Part shown: in pieces, positions 1 through 12,431 of the stretch
How the letters are laid out: the number at the start of each line of letters is the position of its first letter
Numbering within the stretch: position 1 is the first letter of the stretch
The notes under the pieces: model-generated
The model's input: only the letters and a program-made list of their open reading frames with translations
Told to the model about the DNA's origin: nothing
Database searches by the model: none
Source of the DNA: Melanopsichium pennsylvanicum
Taxonomy: Eukaryota; Basidiomycota; Ustilaginomycetes; Ustilaginales
Direction: 5' to 3'
Assembly (NCBI GenBank): GCA_900208305.1
Contig: OAPG01000055.1
Location: forward strand, 1-20,894
DNA length: 20,894 nucleotides
Position numbers and translations under genes: made by a program

Positions 1-255
1 GGATTATAATTTATTATAACGGGAACTAAAAATAGTAAATACTTCCTCCTTTCTGGTTATTGTACCCCTTTTTCTTTTTACTAAATCGAATAGAAATAGT
101 ACCACTAAAAGTTGTAATGAAATTTTATAACGGCAAGAAAAATGTAGGGCTTATAAAGTGATAATATTAATTCTATTCTCGTTTTCCCCTAGTGAAAAAT
201 CATTTTATACATAGCATTTCTTTACTCGCGCCTAGTGCGCATTTTAAGAATAAAA

Positions 256-1074
256 ATGAATATTATTATGCCAACAATTCCTAATGTTTACCTAAAAAGT
301 AGTGGACGTCTACAACAACCACAAATGCAAATGAATAATTATGGAGTGGCGCCAGCGCATTCATTTAGTAAACAATCTCCAGGACTAGGTTCAACTCTAT
401 CTGGAAATACATCACTAAATAATAGTGCTATTTGTATCATTAATGCTTACTTTGGTACACTAAATAATACAACAAAGAAAAAAAATACAAATACTAATCG
501 GCTAGGTGTAAGTAGTAATGTATCTACTTCTTATTTTATTATCAGTAAACCGAACTTTAGTCATACTAATAGTAAAGTTACTATTCCATTTTTTTATTAT
601 ACTGCTTCTAACAGTAAAATTTCCTCTAATAATGAAGTTACAGACGGATCATTCCGAAAAAACTTTGCAGAACTAAGCACTACACTTGCTCAACTATATC
701 AAAAAGAAGTAAATGTTATTGCTACTCGACTATATTATCCATATCTAAATAGCGATATTCTAAGTCAATATCTTGCTTACAATGCACCAAGTAATACTTT
801 CATGGATTTCCAAGAAGCTATTCTAACTAATCCAAGTCTACATAAAACGAATCTACCAGCACATATTAGTGGTATTAAAGTACAAGTTTCAGGACGACTA
901 GTTACTGAAACAGTAATTCCACGTATTACTGTTAAATCTTGTCTAATTGGTTCTTTCCAACGTTTCTCCTAATAATATTACACTGTCACAAGCCTTTATT
1001 GATTACAGTAAATTTACAACTAAAAATGAACTAGGTGCTTTTACTGTAAAAGTTTGGATCTGTCAACGATCTTA
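256..1074 (+). CDS. rps3: Mitochondrial ribosomal protein S3, frame broken near the 3' end
   Basis: This is the small-subunit ribosomal protein uS3 (Rps3/Var1 type), which acts in the mitochondrial ribosome. The recognisable part is the C-terminus: a GIKVQVSGRL block (codons ending about 903), an IPRITV block, then GSFQRF. In frame 1 the reading ends at a TAA at 970-972. The expected final part (IDYSKFT, then GAFTVKVW) continues in frame 2 from about 971 to a TAA at 1072-1074, so one base is gained or lost just before 970. ATG256 is chosen as the start; an in-frame GTG at 235 lies upstream, and ATG268 is an alternative. The N-terminal half is rich in Asn and Ser and carries a GC cluster in frame at 346-360. 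All Arg codons are CGN and there is no TTA Leu codon, as in the other core genes. The frame break could be a sequencing error, real decay, or +1 recoding. The gene is single copy here, so no second copy can check it. Confidence 0.85.
346..360 (+). repeat. GC cluster inside rps3
   Basis: A GC-rich block in an otherwise AT-rich gene. It contains the 11-base core GCGCCAGCGCA (349-359), which also occurs, in one orientation or the other, at 2220-2230, 8814-8824, in the atp8-atp6 spacer near 10686-10709, and in the right-arm mirrors. It reads in frame as Gly-Val-Ala-Pro-Ala-His. It looks like a member of a dispersed GC-cluster family that entered without breaking the frame. Confidence 0.6.
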
Positions 1075-1537
1075 AATATAGTTAATTAACTTAATATCGA
1101 TAATTAACCGCTTCCCCTTCGTTTTTTGTAGAATAAAAAACATCCAATTGAAGATTTTTATAACGCCTATTAACTACAATTTTTCTCTTATTTTTAATAA
1201 TACGGACTATTAATTCAATATTTTATTGGCGTGGACTGTATTCTATTTTTAATGTACAATATTGATAGAATTAGAATTATACAAAAACCCCGCGCCGGGC
1301 GCATAGCGCTGCCTATAAAAATGGAACGGCACGGGGATAGGTAAAAAGTCCACATATATATATAAGATTCTTTTATATAAATGCATTTGTGCCGCTTATT
1401 TTTTTGTTTTTTATTTTCGATTTTATAACAGTAATAAATATAGTAGCGCGCGCATTTTATATAGGGATATAAATTATTATATAGTCTTTAAATGAGCGGA
1501 GTCTGAATTATAAATAAAGAAATAATTAGATTATAAA
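1075..1537. other. AT-rich spacer between rps3 and tRNA-Gly, with GC clusters
   Basis: No convincing gene is seen. It contains GC clusters at 1288-1337 (CCCCGCGCCGGGCGC and nearby) and at 1446-1453 (GCGCGCGC). An A/T hairpin of the kind scattered through the window lies near 1130-1165. A TATATATATATA run lies near 1355-1366. No yeast-type promoter nonanucleotide could be identified with confidence. Confidence 0.6.
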
Positions 1538-1608
1538 GCTAGTGTAGTTTAATGGTAAAACTTGGGACTTCCACTCTCACATTTTCGGTTCGATTCCGAA
1601 TACTAGTA
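1538..1608 (+). tRNA. trnG: tRNA-Gly(UCC)
   Basis: Folds as a full cloverleaf. The acceptor is GCTAGTG/TACTAGT with two G-U pairs. The D arm is GTTT/AAAC. The anticodon stem is TGGGA/TCTCA around loop CTTCCAC, giving anticodon TCC. A 4-base variable loop follows, then T stem TTCGG/CCGAA with loop TTCGATT and discriminator A. It reads GGN codons. It lies downstream of rps3 on the same strand and is the only copy in the window. Confidence 0.92.
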
Positions 1609-1669
1609 TAATATGTATAGATTTCTAAAATTTTACCCTGTACTGCTATATTTATTATTAAAGTATCGC

Positions 1670-1699
1670 AACTAAAACTAAACTAAAACTAAAACTAAA
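1670..1699 (+). repeat. Short tandem repeat of AAAACT
   Basis: About five imperfect copies of the hexamer AAAACT (one copy lacks an A), a simple-sequence tract in the spacer after tRNA-Gly. Confidence 0.7.
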
Positions 1700-2132
1700 T
1701 AAAAAATATCTGATTTTATTAGCCTAGATTAATAAGATGGTGAAATTAGAAATATGATTTAGTAGTTTTATAATAAGTATAAATTTCTGATTATAAATAT
1801 AAAGTAGTAATCGTAATGCTTTCAATTGGTCTAATTTAACTACTAGTAGCCATTCCTGTTTTGGTCCAATAAGATCTGATTTATGGTAAGTCATATAATT
1901 TATAGAAGTCTGAATATTTCGTTTTTCAATACTTAGTAAGTAGCCCTGTTCGTCCGAATTGAAGAGAAATCATACACTTTATCAGTATCACGAGTGATCG
2001 CTTGAATGTCTTATGATTCTTCTTAAATTATTTACTAGAATACCAGTTGACATTAAAATATACCTTCTTGTCCTACATTCGTCCCACAGCATGAATAATT
2101 GCTTGTTCATACATACGTTCTTCATACTGAGT

Positions 2133-2162
2133 AAATTGAAATTGAAATTGAAATTGAAATTG
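2133..2162 (+). repeat. AAATTG hexamer repeat, five copies
   Basis: Five perfect tandem copies of AAATTG lie inside the decayed endonuclease. On the minus strand they read as alternating Gln-Phe or Asn-Phe depending on frame. This is likely slippage expansion in dead sequence. Confidence 0.85.
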
Positions 2163-2216
2163 TTGAAGTACATGGAATAGCTTGCTATCGTTGTTAAAGC
2201 TACCATTTGTATGCCA

Positions 2217-2238
2217 TTCTGCGCTGGCGCGACTAAAA
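2217..2238 (+). repeat. GC cluster, identical to the one at 8811-8832
   Basis: This 22-base block (TTCTGCGCTGGCGCG then ACTAAAA) is identical to 8811-8832 and, inverted, to 15952-15973. It sits inside the decayed endonuclease remnant. An identical stretch in unrelated surroundings suggests a mobile or copied GC cluster, as is well known in Saccharomyces mtDNA. Confidence 0.75.
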
Positions 2239-2760
2239 TAATAGTAGTAGCTATTAGTAGTCTTACCAATTTTACAATTCTAATTATAGATACCGTTTGC
2301 AAATAGTGTCTTATGGAATTTGAATTCTTTTTCACCATTATCATAAAGATCTCGAATAGAACTGTAGTGATTACCAAATCGTCGTTAAAAGTCCGTAGCA
2401 CTACCCGTCTTCAGATAGATTATGTTGCACAATATATACCCCGGATTCATTAGTAAACTGAGATCGAGCAAAGGTATTGTGCGTACTTTTATTAACAAGG
2501 ATTTACTTTTTAGACACTTCATAGTAAGTAATACCAGTATTTTTTATAGGTTCTTTAAGTAGGTGTAGTAATTTCCTTTTTATCAAAATCAATTTTTAAT
2601 ACTAGTATAATTATAATTCAAATTATACATATCATTAAGTACTAGACGGTTCGTTTTCATCATGTTAGTATCACTCCACGGAATATAATCCATTTTTAGT
2701 ATAAATAGATTTGAGTTACCAGTACCAAAGATACTTTTAAATGATCAGAAGAGAAGGGGG

Positions 2761-3116
2761 GGCTATCAATCCGTATTTCTCTGGTGTTACGGCCTCAATA
2801 GCTACAGGCATGAATCCGTGATATACTCCACAGATCTCTGAACATTGTCCGTAGAACACTCCTTCACGCTCGATAAGCACAGATGTTTGATTTAGTCGAC
2901 CGCATCGATTTTAAGTCCTAGAGATGGAACGGGAAATCATGGATAAGGTCGTAACAATAAATCGAATGTGTGTATCGATTGGTACTACAACTCGATTATC
3001 TACATCTAGTAGTCGTAGTTGTCCATCCTCTAGATCTGTTTCAGGAACCATGTAGGAATCAAACTCGATTGATTCTCCATCTTCATTAATGAAATCTGAG
3101 TACTCGTATGACCAGT
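2761..3116 (-). pseudogene. cox2: Displaced, decaying copy of the cox2 3' end
   Basis: On the minus strand this matches the last about 126 codons of cox2, from just before the YEYSDF block to the GGATTGATAGCC near the stop. The Cu-A loop ([14 protein letters not shown]) is preserved almost base for base. Small deletions break the frame around the RFIVTGADVIHDF and DAVPGRLN blocks, and 7 bases are missing before the final Trp. At the start it has Tyr in YEYSDF, the residue usual in yeast Cox2, where the intact gene has Ala (AEYSDF). This suggests it is the older native tail and the intact gene carries an imported one. The two are separated by the endonuclease at 3339-4372. Confidence 0.85.
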
Positions 3117-3338
3117 TAGTAATATTAACACATTCGTATAAGAAGGTATACTTATTTAATAAACTATGCCTTTTTAAGCAAATAATAATATATGTTAACT
3201 TTTAATGTATAAAAATATTATACAAAATATAGTTGAATATTAATGTATAAATGAATATAATTATTGTATGATTCAGAAATATACTGATAATAAGTATAAT
3301 TAACTAGAACATCCTACCGAAATAAAATATACTAACCA
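3117..3338. other. Very AT-rich spacer
   Basis: Almost pure A/T with no supported gene. It separates the displaced cox2 tail from the opposite-strand endonuclease. Confidence 0.6.
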
Positions 3339-4372
3339 ATGAAATACACAAACGTAATCTTTAAAGAGTCAAATAAAGAGCAAGATGAACGATTCAAACG
3401 AAGTCTCTTTGTAATGCAAGAAATTGCAAATAATACAGGACAACTTCTAAGAATATTAGTTATGCTCTAGGGCTTAAAGAAGGAGTAGTTACAGATAAAG
3501 TGGTTACAATTTGTGAAGGTATTGTTATAAATAGTATTACACTGCCTCTATCTAGTAGTAGTGCTGATCTGATAATAGTTCACTATTCCGTAGTGTAGTA
3601 AGATCAAGCTCTTCAACTGGTACTAAAGTACCAGGTTGTTACCTACTTCATTCGCAGGATCCAACAAAGGATACATATATCGGACAAAGTAAATCACTAG
3701 CACAACGGGTACGAGAACACGCAAATGGGAGTTATAACGTTCAAAATCTTATTTTATTAAAGATTTTTGAAATAAAGGAATTATAACTCTATTTATTATT
3801 TCAGAAGAAGTACTAGATACTATTACTATCACAAAAGAACTTTTTATTACTATTCTTGAACAATATCTTTTCTTTTATTATAAACCTACTTATAATAAAA
3901 TGTTTGTAGCTGGAACGAATATTGTAGATTCTAATGATCCTAAATTAAGTACAATTATTTGGAGTAAACTTTACATTTATTATAAAGAAGGTGATACTCT
4001 TACACTTATCAATATTATGCATTCTACAGCAGCTTTTTCACGACTTATGAGTAAAACTATTTATTGGGCTCGAGGTATTGTTAAAAAAGGTGGTTGGATT
4101 CGTGATACCGCCGGAGGCTTATTACTAATACACCTGTATCTAATGTAAATATTAATACTCTACTTACTCTTACTGAACTTAAATCAATTGTTGATGACGT
4201 TCTTAAACTACCCGTTACTCTGCCAACATCCAAGAGTGTGAAAGTAACTAATACTTTTACCAATGAAATTCTTTACTTTGATTCTCTAGGTAAAGCAGCT
4301 ATTTATTTTAATAAGCCTCCTTCTTCCCTTTCACGACCTGTTAACCTCCACTCACTCTACCTTAAAAAATAG
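3339..4372 (+). pseudogene. GIY-YIG homing endonuclease linked to cox2, several frame breaks
   Basis: The plus strand encodes a GIY-YIG-type homing endonuclease in pieces. Starting at ATG3339, frame 1 gives 43 codons to a TAG at 3468. The next frame carries LGLKEG. A third carries GCYLLH and DTYIGQSKSLAQRVREH (about 3625-3725), a good match to the GIY and YIG blocks with the conserved Arg. The next carries ILEQYLFFYYKPTYN (about 3850-3897), the catalytic-Glu block, and runs on to 4148. A last frame change near 4110 gives about 80 more residues ending in a TAG at 4370-4372. The 3' half recurs in the right arm with the same break near 4110, so that break is not a random read error. The gene lies antisense to cox2, between the intact gene and its displaced tail. 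It is either dead or, less likely, decoded by recoding. Biochemically it would cut DNA at a homing site, presumably in cox2. Confidence 0.75.
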
Positions 4373-4418
4373 AAAATTGAATATGTTACCCCATAAAAAG
4401 GTTTATTATAGCACCCTA

Positions 4419-4494
4419 AATTACTCTACTTATTTATTTTTATTATAAAATTACCATACTTATTATTTTTTATTATAAAATTACCATACTTATT
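4419..4494. repeat. 30-base tandem repeat downstream of cox2
   Basis: Two near-identical 30-base units (4428-4457 and 4458-4487), each ending in TATTATAAAATTACCAT, plus a partial third. They lie between the cox2 stop codon and the end of the antisense endonuclease. The mirror copy at about 20281-20345 differs in T-run lengths. Confidence 0.75.
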
Positions 4495-4545
4495 GGCAAT
4501 AGTAAAATAGAATTACGTAAGGGGGAAAAATTGCAAGTTATAATA

Positions 4546-5307
4546 TTAAGATTGGCTATCAATCCAAGCTAGGTATTTCTCTGGTGTTACGGCCTCAATA
4601 GCTACAGGCATGAACCCATGATATACTCCACAGATTTCGGAACACTGTCCGTAGAATACACCTTCTCGCTCAATTAGAACTGATGTTTGGTTTAGTCGTC
4701 CGGGCACAGCATCAATTTTAAGTCCTAGAGATGGAACGGCAAAATCATGAATTACATCTGCTCCTGTAACAATAAACCGGATATGTGTATCGATCGGCAC
4801 TACAAATCGGTTATCTACTTCTAGTAGTCGAAGCTGTCCGTCTTCCAGATCTGTTTCTGGAACCATATATGAGTCGAATTCGATACTTTCTCCGTCCTCA
4901 TTAATGAAGTCAGAATATTCTGCACTCCAGTACCATTGGTGTCCTGCTACTTTAACTGTCATAGAAGGACTAATTACTTCATCCATAAGGTAAAGTAGTT
5001 TAAAACTAGGGAAAGCAATAGCAATAAGTACTAGAGCTGGTGTAATTGTCCAAATTAGCTCAATTAGAGTTCCGTGGTTAGCATATTTGTATACTAGTTG
5101 TGATTTATTACTATTAAAGTTAACAATAACTGATGATAGTACCCATAGTACTCCAAAACAAATAATTACTAGATAAAAGAAGATTGAATCGTGTAGTTCT
5201 GTAATACCTTCATGTGTTGGTGATGCTCCATCTTGGAATCCTAGTTGCCAAGGTTGTGGTGCATCATTAAAAATTGCTGTACTAGCAAATGGAAATAGAT
5301 TAAACAT
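4546..5307 (-). CDS. cox2: Cytochrome c oxidase subunit 2 (left-arm copy, intact)
   Basis: Cox2 is the inner-membrane subunit that carries the Cu-A centre and receives electrons from cytochrome c. The 253-residue product is of normal yeast length. It has an N-terminal presequence-like start (MFNLFPFAS) and two membrane helices (about 41-62 and 83-104). The aromatic QWYW stretch (124-127) and the full Cu-A ligand set follow: His187, Cys222, Glu224, Cys226, His230 and Met233. Trp is always TGG, Arg is CGN and Leu is CTN. The sequence is identical in length to the right-arm copy. Its C-terminal part differs from the displaced tail at 2761-3116 (AEYSDF against YEYSDF), consistent with a tail brought in by an endonuclease. 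The next gene upstream is tRNA-Val on the same strand. Confidence 0.97.
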   Translation of the reverse strand: MFNLFPFASTAIFNDAPQPWQLGFQDGASPTHEGITELHDSIFFYLVIICFGVLWVLSSVIVNFNSNKSQLVYKYANHGTLIELIWTITPALVLIAIAFPSFKLLYLMDEVISPSMTVKVAGHQWYWSAEYSDFINEDGESIEFDSYMVPETDLEDGQLRLLEVDNRFVVPIDTHIRFIVTGADVIHDFAVPSLGLKIDAVPGRLNQTSVLIEREGVFYGQCSEICGVYHGFMPVAIEAVTPEKYLAWIDSQS

Positions 5308-6031
5308 TTTTTATATTTATTTATATTATAATAGCTTTGCTAACCCTACTTCTTAACTTAATAATTATCAATAATTATAGTAAGAAAATAGTATTAAATC
5401 CTCTTTTATTTAATAACTTTATTACTATTAATATATTACTATTTATATACTGTATATAAAGCAGCACTTTTATTTTGACTACTCCCCCATTAGAATAAAA
5501 AACATCAAATCGTAGATTTTATTTTATTACAAAGTAGGTTTTTATAACATAATTAGTCATGCATTTATAAAAAAGACGTAATATTAAGAAAAGAGAAAAT
5601 TACACCCAGTAACCAATTTTAAAGTGAAAGCAGCACGTTAAAATAAAAAGGAAATTACTCCTTTCCTATAAGATTATATAAAGAAAAAGGCTATAATTTA
5701 ATAATAGCCACTATAAATAGAAATAATGTTTACTTATTTTAAAATAGATACAGTTTATATTTAATAGAGTAATATAAAAAATATTACATTTACATTACTT
5801 CTGGTTATAAAATCGAAGATTTTAGTCGGTAAAAAAAAGTAATATTTAATAGCCCTGCTAACAGTTATAAATTGAATTATTTAATCCATCTTTTGTCATA
5901 TGTATTGCCCTGATAAAATAGTATAGCAGTTGCCCTATTAAATTGAAAGGGCGCTACGCGCGCCTATCCAATTAAAATATCCTATTTTAATTGGGCAGCA
6001 GATAACTGGTTATAAATTAATTAATTTAATT
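5308..6031. other. AT-rich spacer between tRNA-Val and cox2
   Basis: No gene is supported. It holds several A/T hairpins of the AAAATC-(3-5 bases)-GATTTT family (near 5505-5525 and 5806-5824) and a GC cluster at about 5948-5963 (GGGCGCTACGCGCGCC). Flanking ATTGAAAGG/CCTATCCAATT sequences give the cluster partial dyad symmetry. It would contain the cox2 5' leader; no promoter is recognisable. Confidence 0.55.
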
Positions 6032-6102
6032 TAAGAATTAGAGGAATCGAACCTCTGTCCCCGATGTGTAAGATCGATGCTAAACCACTCAGCTAAATCC
6101 TT
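6032..6102 (-). tRNA. trnV: tRNA-Val(UAC), left copy
   Basis: The minus strand folds as a 71-base cloverleaf. The acceptor is AAGGATT/AATTCTT, the D arm GCT/AGC, and the anticodon stem TCGAT/ATCGG around loop CTTACAC (anticodon TAC). The T stem is AGAGG/CCTCT with loop TTCGATT, and the discriminator is A. It reads GTN codons and lies upstream of cox2 on the same strand. Confidence 0.92.
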
Positions 6103-6422
6103 AGATGTATGTATACCTATATATATATATGTATACAGCTTTAATAAAAGTATAGAAATAGGATAACCATAAACACTTTGAATTTATAATACGGGATGCC
6201 AGTAACTTTAGTAGATATATGATTAATAGTGCTATTAAAAAATATACAAAAAGAGAAGATTTTAGAATGGCTACTTTAAATCTTCTATTTATAGAAGCGC
6301 TGGGGTGCAAATAAAATTATAGTTAATGGGGGTAAGAGAAAAACGGGTTATAAAAATCGAATATTTTTATTCCGCAAGAGCATTTAACTGGTTAAATTTA
6401 GTAGGACTGAAAATGAAGTTAT
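6103..6422. other. AT-rich spacer between the spare atp6 tail and tRNA-Val
   Basis: Contains a TATATATATA microsatellite (about 6119-6130) that differs slightly from the right arm, and an A/T hairpin near 6345-6372. A minus-strand open stretch (6101-6310) overlaps the end of tRNA-Val and has no recognisable features, so I do not call it. Confidence 0.5.
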
Positions 6423-6608
6423 TTAGTGTAGATCAATAGTATCTTTAAGGTATGATGCTGTTAGAATACAGAATACGTAAGCTTGGATAAATGAAACTGC
6501 AATTTCTAGTCCAATTAGTGGGATAAAGAGACTGAATGGGATTAGAGTAATAACTGCTGTAATAGCTCCTGATGTAAACATTGGTGCTAGGAATCCTGAA
6601 AGGATTTT
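6423..6608 (-). pseudogene. atp6: Displaced second copy of the atp6 3' end (left)
   Basis: Codes in one open frame for 61 residues and a stop that match residues 194-254 of atp6 (KILSGFLAP through SYLKDTIDLH). The middle section differs strongly (MFTSGAITAVITLIPFSLFIPL against LFTSTFIVSV and onward in the intact gene), while both ends are nearly identical at DNA level. It has no start of its own and lies about 2.9 kb downstream of atp6, beyond the endonuclease ORF. This is the pattern left when a mobile endonuclease inserts in atp6 with a replacement tail. Which tail is the native one is inferred from position. The frame is still intact, so displacement may be recent or the tail may still be under conversion or selection. 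Confidence 0.88.
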
Positions 6609-6943
6609 TAGTAGTGTGTGCTTATTATTTTACCATTAAGCATAGGATCTACTTCACGGTTCCAGAATTTTTGATAATCGTCAGTTTGCTTTTGTTCTAC
6701 TTCGTATGATTCAAGTGGAACAATAAACCAAATTTATTTATATGGTTTACCCGAATCTACATATTTCTGCTTCCAGTTGTGTGAATTTCTAAACACATCA
6801 AAGTATCGTAGAATATCAGCTAGAGAGGAGAAGTTTTTATGTAGAATTTTTTGATTTGTTCCAGTGTCAAGTTTGAGTAGTTGGTAAGGATTAGATAGTG
6901 TCTTAGGGGGTTTTTTTGCAATATAAAATTTTTGTGTTGAAAA
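6609..6943 (-). pseudogene. Dead C-terminal tail of an endonuclease, left copy
   Basis: Between the endonuclease ORF and the spare atp6 tail, the minus strand reads as pieces of a second endonuclease C-terminus. The first piece is PYQLLKLDTGTNQKILHKTS. After a frame change comes SLADILRYFDVFRNSHNW with KYVDSGKPYK, then an in-frame TAA, then IWFIVPLESYE to about 6610. The layout resembles the NUMOD-like DNA-binding tails of GIY-YIG and HNH homing endonucleases. The same breaks occur in the right arm. It is probably what remains of an earlier insertion at the same atp6 site. Confidence 0.55.
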
Positions 6944-8422
6944 TTATCCAGTACCTGATAGTTCGTAACATTTGTTGATATATCTTCTTATTTTTTTGGA
7001 GTCAGTATAACCAATATATTTAGCAGCTTCTTGAGAATTAGTAAACTCAGGACCTACTTGATTTAGAGTAGTACTGTCAATTAGAATATATTTTCCAGTA
7101 GGGATACAATTAACATCAAAATAGTCTGGATAAATTAGCCCATAATCTTTGTTTCGAGAGGAAAGAGTTCCAGAAGGTCGTACTGATTCATCTTGGAAAA
7201 TTGTAACTGATTTATCCATTGCAGGTGCTGTAATATAATGAGTTGGTGTGATATTTACATTTCTTGTAAAAGTTCTAGTATTAATACCTGTTGCGGCCTC
7301 TTTGTGAATAAAAAAAGGAACGTTACCTTCTTGATCGATAAGTTTAGTTTTATAACTTGTTATACCAAATTTATCTTGGAAAGCTGTAGAGGACCAATTC
7401 ATATAATCAAAAATAACACCTTGGCTAGAATACCAAGAAGGAAGATTATAAGCATGAATTGACTGTTCAACCAGACGAACACGGTGTTTGCTATAGTGTG
7501 CTAGAATATTTGAATAGATGGGCATGTCTGAAGTAGGGATACTATATTTGGATATATAATCTTTAAAAAGATTACTAGTAGTATATAGAACACCCCATTT
7601 TAGATTGGAGATACCACCAATTCTTGCAACATTACGTGCAAAAGATACATCCTCTCTAGGAAGACCCTTAATAAAACGATCCACATTTTTGTAATAGTTT
7701 TCCATTCTATTTTCAATATTAATACTAGATCCGACATTTACTAGACAATTTTCCATAGTAGTGAAAGAGTATACTACAGATTTATTCTTAAAATCTGCAA
7801 ACAGCTTACGATCAAGAACGTTATCCAGATTCGATAGCTTCGTATAATTACAAATAGAATTTGGTTCGATAGATGACTTTAGAATACCAGTATTGTCAGA
7901 AGGTTTAATAAGAATGTCATAACAATTTTCAATAAGGTAATCGGCTAGATGAATATTATTTTTTTTACAAAAATATAGCATTCTATTTAGTGTTTCTCTA
8001 CTTTTATCTACATTCTTATAATTATACCAAGGAATATAAGATTCATTAGTAATAATTGCAGTTTTATTACTAATACCCATACCATTTTCATCTTCTTGAC
8101 AGTAAATAGTTTTAAGAAAAGAAAACGGAGAATTAGGAAAATAATTGAAAAAAGAAAAATCATTGGAAAAAATAGATGCATAATTATATAAATTATTTAC
8201 TACCCATTCTTCTTTAAAAATAATCCAAACAAAAAGTCTAGTAATAAGAAATAGATAAAAAGGATTACACAGCATGAAGATTATAGAGATTTTCATTAGA
8301 TATGTACCATACATCATTTTATATTGCGCTATTTTTGCACAAAATACAAAAAGAATTACAAAAATAAAAGTAATAACTGGAATTAGAGCATTTTTCATCA
8401 CTAAAGTAGGTATAGTTAACAT
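6944..8422 (-). CDS. GIY-YIG-type homing endonuclease with hydrophobic N-terminus (left, intact)
   Basis: 492 residues from ATG8422; a GTG just upstream is also open. Residues about 11-31 and 43-69 are strongly hydrophobic and could span a membrane, which is unusual for this family. A GIY-YIG core follows: VVYSF (216-220) in place of GIY, VNVGSS (228-233) in place of YIG, Arg239 at the conserved Arg, and a LVEQSIHAYN block with Glu319 as the likely metal-binding Glu. The C-terminus (about 445-485) contains FTNSQEAAKYIGY, resembling a NUMOD-type DNA-binding repeat. It would bind and cut a homing site, probably in atp6, whose spare tail lies just downstream. Codon use differs from the core genes: 10 AGA to 7 CGN Arg codons and many TTA and ATA. 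GIY and YIG residues are imperfect, so activity is uncertain. Confidence 0.78.
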   Translation of the reverse strand: MLTIPTLVMKNALIPVITFIFVILFVFCAKIAQYKMMYGTYLMKISIIFMLCNPFYLFLITRLFVWIIFKEEWVVNNLYNYASIFSNDFSFFNYFPNSPFSFLKTIYCQEDENGMGISNKTAIITNESYIPWYNYKNVDKSRETLNRMLYFCKKNNIHLADYLIENCYDILIKPSDNTGILKSSIEPNSICNYTKLSNLDNVLDRKLFADFKNKSVVYSFTTMENCLVNVGSSINIENRMENYYKNVDRFIKGLPREDVSFARNVARIGGISNLKWGVLYTTSNLFKDYISKYSIPTSDMPIYSNILAHYSKHRVRLVEQSIHAYNLPSWYSSQGVIFDYMNWSSTAFQDKFGITSYKTKLIDQEGNVPFFIHKEAATGINTRTFTRNVNITPTHYITAPAMDKSVTIFQDESVRPSGTLSSRNKDYGLIYPDYFDVNCIPTGKYILIDSTTLNQVGPEFTNSQEAAKYIGYTDSKKIRRYINKCYELSGTG

Positions 8423-8468
8423 CACTTTTCATAGAATATACATAAGAAGTATAAACATTAAAGAATCC

Positions 8469-8576
8469 CTAAACCATGAAACCAAATAGATGAAAATAAT
8501 ATACTACTAGAAGTACTATAATAGTAATATTTGAAATGATTCTAGTAATACTACTTGAGAAAAATTTGTTAGTCAT
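8469..8576 (-). CDS. Possible 35-residue membrane peptide ORF (left)
   Basis: ATG8576 to TAG8469 encodes 35 residues beginning MTNKFFSSS, with a hydrophobic run ITIIVLLVVYYFHLFGFMV. It lies just upstream of the endonuclease ORF on the same strand but in a different frame, and the frame stays open beyond the TAG for about 45 codons. It may be an upstream part of the endonuclease reading frame broken by mutation, or chance. The sequence is the same in both arms. No family is recognised. Confidence 0.25.
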   Translation of the reverse strand: MTNKFFSSSITRIISNITIIVLLVVYYFHLFGFMV

Positions 8577-8726
8577 TTCAAAATAAATAATTAAGTTCAT
8601 AGTACATATTGTAACTATTATGTAGACATTAAAATTGCATAGTTAATTTGATAATTCTAGAGATTTCTTTTTCTTCACTAACTTTTAAGCTCAAATTGGT
8701 AAAAACTTTTGTATAAGAATAGATAA

Positions 8727-8796
8727 GGAGATATAACTTAAAGGTAGAGTAGTTCGCTTCTAATGAATTTGTATTGGTTCGATTCCATTTATCTTA
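8727..8796 (+). tRNA. trnR: tRNA-Arg(UCU), left copy
   Basis: The D arm is ACTT/GAGT with an AAAGGTA loop. The anticodon stem GTTCG/TGAAT carries loop CTTCTAA, giving anticodon TCT, which reads AGA/AGG. The T loop is TTCGATT with stem ATTGG/CCATT (one T-T mismatch). The acceptor GGAGATA pairs with TATCTTA except at the terminal pair (G-A), with one G-U next to it. It is antisense to the surrounding atp6-endonuclease block. The imperfect T stem and acceptor end may be a lost base, a reduced tRNA, or a site of tRNA editing; the mirror copy has the same sequence. Confidence 0.75.
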
Positions 8797-8810
8797 TTTT
8801 TAATTTCTTT

Positions 8811-8832
8811 TTCTGCGCTGGCGCGACTAAAA
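8811..8832 (+). repeat. GC cluster next to tRNA-Arg
   Basis: Identical over 22 bases to 2217-2238, with core TGCGCTGGCGC. It lies 15 bases after the tRNA-Arg 3' end, followed by an A/T hairpin (AAAATCG then AAGATTTT). Confidence 0.75.
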
Positions 8833-8898
8833 AATCGAATAAGATTTTACAAGGGGTTTCTATTTACTATGATTACTACTATTAAAAATTAGGATAAC

Positions 8899-9213
8899 TC
8901 AGATAAAATAAATTAGGATAACTTGAATTGAATCTCTCATATCGTTAAATGGCAGATTTCGTAGGTTGGTGTGTGAATACGGAAGAATATAAATATTTCC
9001 ACCATGTTTTTTACACATATCCATAATTTTATGTGTTGCAGGTTCTTTTTTTAATAGGTATTTATAACATGTTCTAGAAATGTGTGTTGTAAATTCTGAG
9101 TGATAAATGGATGCTTTTTTATCACTTCCTATTGGCACAATAATTATAAAACCTGACGTAGTTTTACTAGTATTACGATTAGGTTTACCATACTTTTCTA
9201 TTACTTTCTTCAT
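8899..9213 (-). CDS. Unrecognised 104-residue ORF (left)
   Basis: ATG9213 to TGA8899. The product is basic (MKKVIEKYGKPNRN) with a SGFIIIVPIGSDKKASIYH segment and a central CYKYLLKKEP stretch. I do not recognise a family. The position, downstream of atp6 within the insertion that also carries the endonuclease and the spare atp6 tail, suggests it belongs to the mobile segment, perhaps as a piece of an older endonuclease. It uses both AGA and CGN Arg codons, unlike core genes. Both arms carry the same open frame, which mildly supports it being real. Confidence 0.4.
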   Translation of the reverse strand: MKKVIEKYGKPNRNTSKTTSGFIIIVPIGSDKKASIYHSEFTTHISRTCYKYLLKKEPATHKIMDMCKKHGGNIYILPYSHTNLRNLPFNDMRDSIQVILIYFI

Positions 9214-9234
9214 TTTATTCTTTTCTTTCTTATC

Positions 9235-9512
9235 TCAAGGAAATTTAATGACCTCAATTTGTTTCAGGTCTTCAAAAATAAATCGGTAGAGAATCGAAAT
9301 AAATTTGTGAGGGCTAATTGAAGTATCAAAGTTACTACTAATACTAGTAAAAATTTGCATCAGATTAGTATAAGTATAAAAGATGGACACATTTTTGAAT
9401 ACTGTACCGCAGGAAAGGGGAGTATCCAATTAATCTTTTTTAGAAAAGATTCATTAGCAACTAGCACTTTAGTTACTAGAATTATTGAAACTTTAGTAAA
9501 ACCTCTACTCAT
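9235..9512 (-). CDS. Two overlapping small ORFs starting at the atp6 stop (left)
   Basis: The base after the atp6 TAA begins an ATG (9512). This frame runs 50 codons (MSRGFTKVS...) to a TGA at 9360-9362. The A of that TGA begins an ATG in another frame (9360), which continues through NFDTSISPHKFISILYRF to a TGA at 9235. The TGATG overlap is compatible with translational coupling or with one ancestral ORF split by a frameshift. It contains AGA, ATA and TTA codons like the endonuclease ORFs. No family is recognised. Both arms carry the same arrangement. Confidence 0.35.
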
Positions 9513-10277
9513 TTAATGTAGATCAATAGCATCTTTAAGATATGAACATGTTAGAACACAGAATACGTAAGCTTGAATAAATGAAACTGCAATTTCTAGT
9601 CCAATAATACCAGTAAAAATGATAAATGGTAGTACAGTCAGTACTGAAACAATAAAAGTAGAAGTAAATAGAGGAGCCAGGAATCCTGAAAGGATTTTCA
9701 TTAGAACGTGTCCTGCTGTAACGTTAGCAAATAGCCGAACTCCAAGTGAGAAAGCTCGTGCTAGATATGAAATCAGCTCAATAGGTACTAGTAGAGGTAC
9801 TAGTCCTAGAGGTGTACCTGAAGGAACAAAGAATGAGAAGAAGTGTACTTTGTGTAGTCGTAGACCAAGAATTGTAACTCCAATAAAGATTGTCATACTT
9901 AGACCAATACTTACCATAATTGATGTAGCTACTGTAAATCCATATGGTACGTTACCACTTAGATTAGCAATTAGGATAAAGAAGAATAGTGAGTAGATAA
10001 ATGGAAGGTACATCTCGTTAGCAGCACCAATTTGTGATTTAACTAGTCCGTGTACTGAAGCAAAACTACTTTCTAGTGCAATACTCCATCGACTTGGAAT
10101 TAGTTGGTGGTTGTTACTTCCCATAATATGAAGTGATAGTACTAGATATACAGTTAGAATTGTATATAGTCCTAGATTTGTTAGACTTAGATTAACGTAT
10201 CCAAGTACAGGTAGATTTAGAGAAATAAGACTAGTTACTTCAAATTGCTCTAGTGGTGAATGAATTAGGAATGCCAT
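9513..10277 (-). CDS. atp6: ATP synthase subunit a (left copy, intact)
   Basis: Subunit a of the F0 proton channel in the inner membrane. It has 254 residues, close to the usual fungal length, and begins MAFLIHSPLEQFEV as in other fungal Atp6 precursors. The key block LGVRLFANVTAGH contains the essential Arg181 facing the c-ring, and a GLEIAVSFIQAYVF helix follows near the C-terminus. Leu codons are CTA/CTT and Arg is CGA/CGG. Residues from Lys194 onward exist in a second diverged version at 6423-6608, and the junction lies at a short palindrome AATCCTTTCAGGATT (9682-9696). The most economical reading is that this C-terminus was imported with the endonuclease. atp8 is upstream on the same strand, so the two are probably co-transcribed. 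Confidence 0.97.
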   Translation of the reverse strand: MAFLIHSPLEQFEVTSLISLNLPVLGYVNLSLTNLGLYTILTVYLVLSLHIMGSNNHQLIPSRWSIALESSFASVHGLVKSQIGAANEMYLPFIYSLFFFILIANLSGNVPYGFTVATSIMVSIGLSMTIFIGVTILGLRLHKVHFFSFFVPSGTPLGLVPLLVPIELISYLARAFSLGVRLFANVTAGHVLMKILSGFLAPLFTSTFIVSVLTVLPFIIFTGIIGLEIAVSFIQAYVFCVLTCSYLKDAIDLH

Positions 10278-10775
10278 TGCATAAAATAATATTAATTGGA
10301 TTGTTACTTAATGTTTTTTTAATAGTTGCTACACCCCTATAAATTAAATGCTAGCTAGCAACACTGATAACAAAATAGATCCTTTTTCATTTTTAGCGCA
10401 ATAAATTTTGCGCTTGCGCTGCGCTTGCGCGCGGGGTTCAATTTGAAATAATGTTAAAGCTTTCTTCTTTCCTATAAAATAGTATAAAATGCCACCGCCG
10501 ATTTTTCTGTTTTATAGACCGCATATTCTATTTAGCTATCGGCTGACACTCTAAAAGAATCCGCTACGCGCTATATTTATATTTATTTACTAAAAGGAGG
10601 CTGTCTATTTTTATCACACCCTTATAAAATAAAATCGAAAATAAAATCGAAAATAAAATCTACGATTTCTTTTTAAGAGTGAGTGTGCTGGCGCTGCGCT
10701 GGCGCTGCTATAAAAATATAGGAGATATTTTAGTGGGGGGGAAAAGATCGTAAAAGTAATAACGATCTTCTTTAA
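10278..10775. other. Spacer between atp8 and atp6 with GC clusters and repeats
   Basis: No gene is supported. It contains a GC cluster at about 10410-10437 (TGCGCTTGCGC motifs), one near 10560-10571 (CCGCTACGCGCT), and one at 10685-10709 carrying the shared GCGCTGGCGC core. A 12-base tandem repeat (ATAAAATCGAAA, about 2.6 copies) lies at 10626-10662. CTAGCTAGC lies near 10351. These would be transcribed between atp8 and atp6 and could form stable hairpins. Confidence 0.6.
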
Positions 10776-10922
10776 TTAAAGTTTAGTAATGTACATTCGT
10801 GAAACAAATAGTTCTACAAAAGCTGGTAGGATGTATTTAGAAAATACAAATAGTAGTACAAATAGTCCTAGGAATGCAAATGAGATTTGATTTACGAAGT
10901 AAAAAGGTAGTAGTTGAGGCAT
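10776..10922 (-). CDS. atp8: ATP synthase subunit 8 (left copy)
   Basis: 48 residues starting [15 protein letters not shown], the classic fungal Atp8 opening. A membrane helix (about 13-28) and a basic C-terminal end (SRMYITKL) follow. It is a peripheral-stalk component of F0 in the inner membrane. Length and sequence match fungal Atp8, and the right-arm copy is identical in length. It lies between cox1 and atp6 on one strand, the yeast order. Confidence 0.96.
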
Positions 10923-11356
10923 TATTTATCAATCAATAAAATAGTTACAAACTAGTAGACTATAGCCTTGTAATATATATATAATCGTTTTCTATTATAT
11001 AGCAGCTATAAAATAGAAGATTTTAGTAGCCGGATTTAATTAATAATACGGGCTTAGTCTCTACTGGAACTGTTACTACTATTTAAGCCTAAAAATGGGG
11101 CTTTCTTTTTCCAGTTTTTCTTTTTATAAAAAGGAACAATAAAATTGATTCCCTCATAAATTTTCTAACCGTTAGAAAAAGGATAGTATATTTTTCTTAA
11201 TAATATTTTGTGCTCCGTTAAAAAATCGGAAGATTTTAGTAGGTCGATTATAGTAATTACTAGAAAATAGAAAACACTAGATAGTTTGTTCCGCTAAGGA
11301 GATGGGTAAGAAGGGGAGTGCGTCCCACCATGATATTCTATAATTTTATATATAAA
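10923..11356. other. Spacer between cox1 and atp8
   Basis: AT-rich with A/T hairpins near 11005-11025 and 11222-11240. A CTAACCGTTAG self-complementary motif lies near 11165-11175. No gene is seen. Confidence 0.5.
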
Positions 11357-12377
<1,021 letters not shown>

Positions 12378-12431
12378 TCCTATGTTACAAGATCCTTATT
12401 TTTCTAATTGGCTTTGTTTTTATTGAATGAA
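12378..12431. other. Unpaired spacer at the axis of the palindrome
   Basis: The last clear pairing is AAAGTCC (12371-12377) with GGACTTT (12432-12438). The roughly 54 bases between show no further inverted match. Single-base noise around it makes the exact axis uncertain by tens of bases. Confidence 0.6.

Follow-up and report, generated by a model that had tools for sequence, protein, structure and literature searches.

A probable replacement of the mitochondrial atp6 end, with the former end stranded downstream, in Melanopsichium pennsylvanicum

The atp6 gene of Allomyces macrogynus is reportedly a hybrid, an observation attributed to Paquin et al. in 1994. A comparable locus occurs in the mitochondrial DNA (mtDNA) of the basidiomycete Melanopsichium pennsylvanicum. 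The window analyzed here, a stretch of 20,894 nucleotides (nt) that constitutes one whole contig (C55, OAPG01000055.1) of a 21.1-Mb, 61-contig genome assembly (GCA_900208305.1), encodes a complete atp6 gene and, 2.9 kb downstream of it, a frame-intact second copy of the last 65 atp6 codons. The locus is an unusually complete, real example of a process already known in fungi: it allows comparison of the prior state (represented by relatives sharing the core) with the present one, with the discarded piece, and with an independent nuclear fossil.

As outlined in PMC3630166, the A. macrogynus atp6 received an incoming C-terminal part and an endonuclease open reading frame (ORF), with the native end lying downstream, while a near relative keeps the native end. 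The window shares with it the gene and the order of incoming end, ORF, and stranded native end, but belongs to a distant phylum, contains a tRNA and extra ORFs within the insert as well as a probably decayed endonuclease ORF, and has an incoming tail close to those of near relatives. In Glomus sp., hybrids of atp6, atp9, cox2, and nad3 were shown as mRNA, and the native end is likewise stranded and groups with close relatives; there, the element in atp6 is of the LAGLIDADG type, whereas the window has a weak GIY-YIG match and a putatively expressed hybrid (PMC3630166). Within the same subphylum, Sporisorium scitamineum has the 3' ends of atp9, cox1, nad1, nad5, and nad6 duplicated downstream of the full genes with GIY-YIG remains between, for which its authors propose invasion by endonuclease genes; atp6 is absent from the gene list presented there, while in M. 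pennsylvanicum both kin and a nuclear fossil identify the resident end (PMC4466345). In Tremella fuciformis, an element that brings a homologue of one segment of the host gene takes the place of that segment and varies within the species, but these elements are read as introns that may later lose splicing, whereas no intron core was detected in the searched part of the window (PMC7315562). A free-standing endonuclease ORF at the 3' end of Saccharomyces atp6 (ORF4) drives the transfer of atp6 segments between species; its account in PMC8209160 describes no stranded second tail. A full-text search by title and beginning of abstract, with subscription journals mostly outside its scope as well as the Jaminaea mitochondrial genome paper, returned no literature on atp6 tails in Exobasidiomycetes.

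Below, residues 1-185 of the window's Atp6 are referred to as the core, residues 186-254 as the active tail, and the downstream copy as the spare tail. The spare tail (6423-6614, reverse strand) aligns to the atp6 end without gaps, with 148 of 192 nt identical (77%), and its blastn E value of 2e-39 indicates that the likeness is not due to chance. The sequence-only reading, in which residues 194-254 exist twice, was correct about the second copy but set its beginning slightly too late, as likeness at the protein level reaches back to H190 (6618-6620). The strongly diverged middle and near-identical ends of the two tails that it described are borne out by nucleotide differences of 5/27 in codons 191-199, 34/75 in codons 200-224, and 8/93 in codons 225-255. 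Where the two tails share a residue, they also share the codon at 32 of 35 sites in the ends but at 5 of 12 sites in the middle (segments picked by eye; Fisher p=0.001). Gene conversion between the tails is not claimed (run test, p=0.65; scan over all segments, p=0.06). Third codon positions carry a weak compositional signal: the T/A fractions are 0.53/0.34 in the active tail, 0.39/0.43 in the core, and 0.33/0.48 in the spare tail, placing the active tail farther from the core, and the mean codon fit is alike for both tails.

Homologues (P0001-P0175 minus two endonuclease proteins, 173 in total) show both tail types on cores close to that of the window. In eight of them, core identity with the window is 92% or more. 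Among these, P0001, P0002, and P0003 carry an active-type tail, while P0004, P0123, P0124, and P0125 carry a spare-type tail in the working position; the core and the spare-type tail are thus joined in relatives, as seen in proteins. P0123 agrees with the window at all 97 overlapping core residues, and its tail matches the spare tail in 61 of 64 residues and the active tail in 48 of 64. The three residues that separate the spare tail from P0123 are L220, P223, and T250, of which P223 and T250 are absent from all 172 homologues that can be compared at these columns, whereas every residue of the active tail is seen in more than one homologue. By its sequence, the spare tail looks like a working tail in early decay. 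P0079 was left out of the tail counts because its likeness is lost after residue 196: it begins as the spare type (NTVAGHTLLKIL) and its frame then departs (residues 197-217), perhaps owing to another insertion near the same site, on a contig of merely 865 bp.

Of the 120 best-scoring homologues of atp6, those from named fungi belong to Exobasidium, Jaminaea, Parajaminaea, Sympodiomycopsis, and Malassezia, which suggests an Ustilaginomycotina-like basidiomycete, not the ascomycete yeast implied when the sequence-only reading spoke of related yeasts. Records named for a plant, a spider, and two orchids were treated as contaminants. Searches for DNA of relatives gave no match in viral contigs or in plasmids; in genome contigs they gave five loci with bacterial record titles, 37-57% identical.

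Trees from 48 hand-picked rows, with 69 columns for tails (where bootstrap values had not fully settled) and 185 for cores, show that the kinship of the atp6 end differs from that of its core. In the tail tree, the spare tail groups with P0123, P0124, P0125, and P0004 with support of 99/99, as expected of a former resident, and the active tail groups with ten others, including P0001 and P0002 (95/81). Active and spare tails as sisters are rejected (approximately unbiased [AU] test, p=0.0002). In the core tree, the eight members of the near-core complex fall together with support of 82/61 only; active-type rows as one clade (p=0.012) and spare-type rows as one clade (p=0.031) are both rejected. 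These p values are somewhat optimistic, since the groups were named after earlier trees had been seen.

An independent record is preserved in the nucleus. A stretch of 72 bp on the 1.2-Mb contig C4 (547385-547456; L010 2386-2457), where the local G+C content is 0.52 vs 0.32 for the mtDNA contig C28, matches the spare tail at 83% (60/72, E=2.8e-14). It reads MFTSGATTALFTLIPFSIFIALI and agrees in 20 of 23 residues with P0123, P0124, P0125, and P0004, in 18 with the spare tail, in nine with the active tail, and in at most 16 with any other homologue. No nuclear match of this kind to the active atp6 DNA was found among the best candidates scored in the genome search. As the fossil is closer to the spare-type relatives than to the spare tail itself, its sequence argues that an undecayed spare-type tail was once present in the mtDNA of this lineage. 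Together with the P0123-type kin, in which the same core carries a spare-type tail, this supports the view, drawn from sequence comparison, that the spare tail is the former resident tail, displaced on arrival of the active tail. The replaced C-terminus with the old one stranded 2.9 kb downstream, as the sequence-only reading had it, is therefore upheld by both near-core relatives and the nuclear fossil.

The tail of atp6 was thus very probably replaced by an incoming active-type tail by way of an endonuclease element, with the resident tail left downstream. A mobile element bearing its own version of the atp6 end would have entered the resident gene near codons 186-190. Repair, following a cut presumably made by the endonuclease, would have copied the incoming tail together with the element, so that new residues 186-254, which form the end of ATP synthase subunit a, would now close the gene. 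Left 2.9 kb downstream and lacking a start codon, the resident tail would have begun to gather substitutions, and the endonuclease gene itself would have decayed as well. Presumably, the hybrid gene is the one in use, the stranded tail is silent, and the donor belonged to the same wider clade. The Allomyces-like event proposed by the sequence-only reading, giving a hybrid subunit a, fits the latest step, as core and tail differ in kinship; a distant donor is not supported, since the active tail also groups with near relatives (P0001, P0002) and the wider clade, and the endonuclease is weakly identified.

A selfish DNA-cutting element is the most likely agent of the swap: an endonuclease-like ORF lies between the two ends, its frame ends inside the spare tail, and nad1 and cox2 show the same layout. 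The 513-aa ORF has two homologues among 4433 candidates (P0121 and P0122), about 70% identical where aligned. Both carry a residue at its first TAA (6944-6946), and P0122 continues beyond the position of the second (6734-6736). NUMOD1 scores 17.5 bits in P0122 (cut-off 22.8), a PDB search with P0122 gave no match, and the predicted structure of the 513-aa ORF has a pLDDT (predicted local distance difference test) of 34. Its sequence suggests that the ORF is likely a decayed homing endonuclease; the ORF between the tails that the sequence-only reading called GIY-YIG is degenerate and weakly identified. The pair of overlapping ORFs at 8860-9512 (reverse strand) is possibly one frameshifted gene.

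Table 1. Features of the atp6 locus in the window
Feature	Position	Strand	Evidence
atp6, complete, apparently hybrid gene, 254 aa	9513-10277	-	ORF; Pfam ATP-synt_A, E=6.4e-56
Putative resident atp6 core, residues 1-185	9723-10277	-	P0123, 97/97 overlapping residues; P0004, 177/185
Putative incoming (active-type) tail, residues 186-254 and stop	9513-9722	-	In one group with P0001, P0002, and eight further rows, 95/81
Putative stranded former tail, residues 190-254 and stop	6423-6620	-	No start codon; frame open; two residues unseen in homologues
ORF of 513 aa, TTG start, first ATG at 8458	6944-8485	-	Weak GIY-YIG; homologues P0121 and P0122
Remainder of putative endonuclease frame	6608-6946	-	TAA at 6944-6946 and 6734-6736; ends at 6608-6610 within the spare tail
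Two overlapping ORFs directly 3' of atp6	8860-9512 (9201-9512, 8860-9429)	-	No family above cut-off
tRNA-Arg(tct), opposite strand, inside the insert	8726-8798	+	ARAGORN; Rfam tRNA, 49 bits

Two other genes of the same mtDNA have stranded ends. A broken and decayed copy of the cox2 3' end lies at 2761-3105 (reverse strand; 81% over 367 columns, with 22 gap positions), and between it and cox2, on the opposite strand (3562-4372), GIY-YIG scores 22.5 bits (cut-off 22.6) and NUMOD1 19.1 bits (cut-off 22.8). Outside the window, nad1 has a stranded 90-nt end copy (C28, 32364-32453) with 77 of 90 nt identical, an open frame, and synonymous changes in 11 of the 12 changed codons. Between nad1 and this copy, an open frame of 199 codons (C28, 32983-33582; L034) matches GIY-YIG above the cut-off of 22.6 bits (27.2 bits, E=4.7e-6).

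Several observations weigh against the replacement by an endonuclease element. The match of the ORF at 6944-8485 to Pfam GIY-YIG (E=0.0088, 16.8 bits) is weak and below the cut-off of 22.6; the explanation does not account for the opposite-strand tRNA or for the 1 kb of ORFs without an assigned family within the insert; and the insert-free site was seen in relatives at the protein level only. In the tail trees, a single clade of the eight complex members (spare counted as one) was not quite rejected (p=0.055), and a quick tree of 78 rows did not reject the sisterhood of active and spare tails (p=0.09). The core tree nests the spare-type relatives inside a clade of mostly active-type members, as P0003, P0005, P0007, P0008, P0011, P0066, P0067, and P0096, which surround the complex, carry active-type tails; because most of the wider clade does so, the direction of exchange is not the simple one. 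This nesting comes close to half of the refuting outcome set by the sequence-only reading, and the active tail does group with close relatives, as the spare tail does too. The same members would fit the improbable alternative in which the clade inherited the active tail, while the spare tail arrived from outside with the element and was never used by this gene. Spare-type tails are too distant from those of P0003, P0005, P0007, and P0011 for their cores (ranks 0.00-0.03), with a less clear excess for P0008, P0066, P0067, and P0096 (ranks 0.11-0.37), and they lie nearer to eight Exobasidium-type tails (0.84-0.88) than the cores predict, albeit within the background (ranks 0.82-0.92). For their part, P0002 and P0003 have tails closer to the P0066 tail than would be expected from the cores (ranks 0.99). 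A foreign spare tail is opposed, however, by the four relatives with the nearest cores, which use this type in the working position, by the undecayed spare type of the nuclear fossil, by P0009, which combines a fairly near core (0.84) with a spare-like tail (0.83), and by the geometry of insertion, in which the recipient's original end comes to lie downstream of the element.

A mosaic made by ordinary recombination of two mtDNAs that differed in their tails, the endonuclease ORF being incidental, would suit the weakness of the GIY-YIG match and the core/tail mosaics of other homologues; it does not account for the retention of both tails in a single molecule, on either side of an endonuclease-like ORF, or for the same layout at nad1 and cox2, and is more doubtful still. 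Reading the stretch as an intron and the spare tail as an alternative last exon, as suggested for atp6 and cox2 of Phlebia radiata (PMC4019555) and in keeping with the Tremella model (PMC7315562), is favored by the open frame of the spare tail but very unlikely: no group I intron core was found in positions 1-12400 of the window at E up to 0.1, whereas the same method found three cores above cut-off elsewhere in this mtDNA, and two residues of the spare tail are unseen in homologues. The near-identical ends of the two copies might recall a simple duplication of the native atp6 end followed by divergence, but each tail has its own kin and the careful tree rejects their sisterhood, if not the quick one, which leaves this explanation hardly credible.

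Exchange of the atp6 end probably took place more than once, as core and tail are in conflict from residue 186 onwards in further homologues too. Among 172 distinct homologues (window included), 149 of the 327 pairs with a core identity of at least 0.90 have a tail identity of at most 0.80, and mismatch in these pairs is 0.00 at residue 185 but 0.89 at residue 186. Since 121 of them fall within a single Exobasidium-like group of 24 and another 19 within the window's group, they represent few events. A sliding-window scan counted by pairs singles out residues 184-252 (131 of 304 near pairs, vs 0 to 19 for windows within residues 1-213); counted by connected groups it does not, as variable N-terminal windows also reach 11 vs 8, and recurrence is therefore argued from trees and long contigs. 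Examples are P0015 (88 kb) vs P0046 (41 kb), with identities of 0.92 in the core and 0.77 in the tail, and P0002 (81 kb) vs P0004 (11 kb), with 0.95 and 0.68. Short metagenome contigs (e.g., P0016, 852 bp) may be chimeric and were not relied on. The cores of P0028 and P0033 are 99% identical and their tails 75%; these two and P0024 form a group in the core tree (100/93), whereas on tails such a group is rejected (AU p=0.014). Tests of further exchanges gave mixed AU values: 0.014 and 0.063 for tails, 0.12 and 0.13 for cores. Two exchanges, in the Exobasidium-like group and in the window's group, are well supported, and further ones are likely.

For the window's group, a history in two steps is the likeliest: an ancestor of the complex would have gained the spare type, and the active type would later have returned with the element. 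The window records only this second step. The spare type itself may be an older gain from an Exobasidium-like lineage. A broader picture can be offered tentatively, in which Exobasidiomycetes repeatedly exchange the part of atp6 from residue 186 as a cassette: near-identical cores would bear different tails in several lineages, tail types would circulate by homing, and the window's lineage would have gained an Exobasidium-like tail that was replaced again by the clade's own type. The locus cautions that, in these fungi, an atp6 tree can combine two histories, with the switch at residue 186. Should exchange be recurrent, near-isogenic strains differing in nothing but the tail would allow a test of how swapping the end of subunit a affects ATP synthase.

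The assembly contains at least 14 identical full atp6 copies and at least 14 identical spare tails, which represent repeated assembly pieces rather than independent molecules. Wherever both are present, they lie about 2.9 kb apart; no insert-free atp6 copy was seen in the assembly, which could mask a minor form. Across positions 1-20894, the window forms a fold-back palindrome with arms 99% identical over 8.4 kb and a frameshifted second arm, probably an assembly or read artefact. The cox2 end copy contains three gaps of the same length, 7 nt each. A tRNA-Arg(tct) is located between gene and stranded end both in the window and near nad1 (C28, 32520-32592), and the two are very different. On the 636-kb contig C14, a 12.9-kb stretch (about 304.2-317.1 kb) is 99.9% identical to mtDNA and represents either a fresh nuclear copy or a misjoin.

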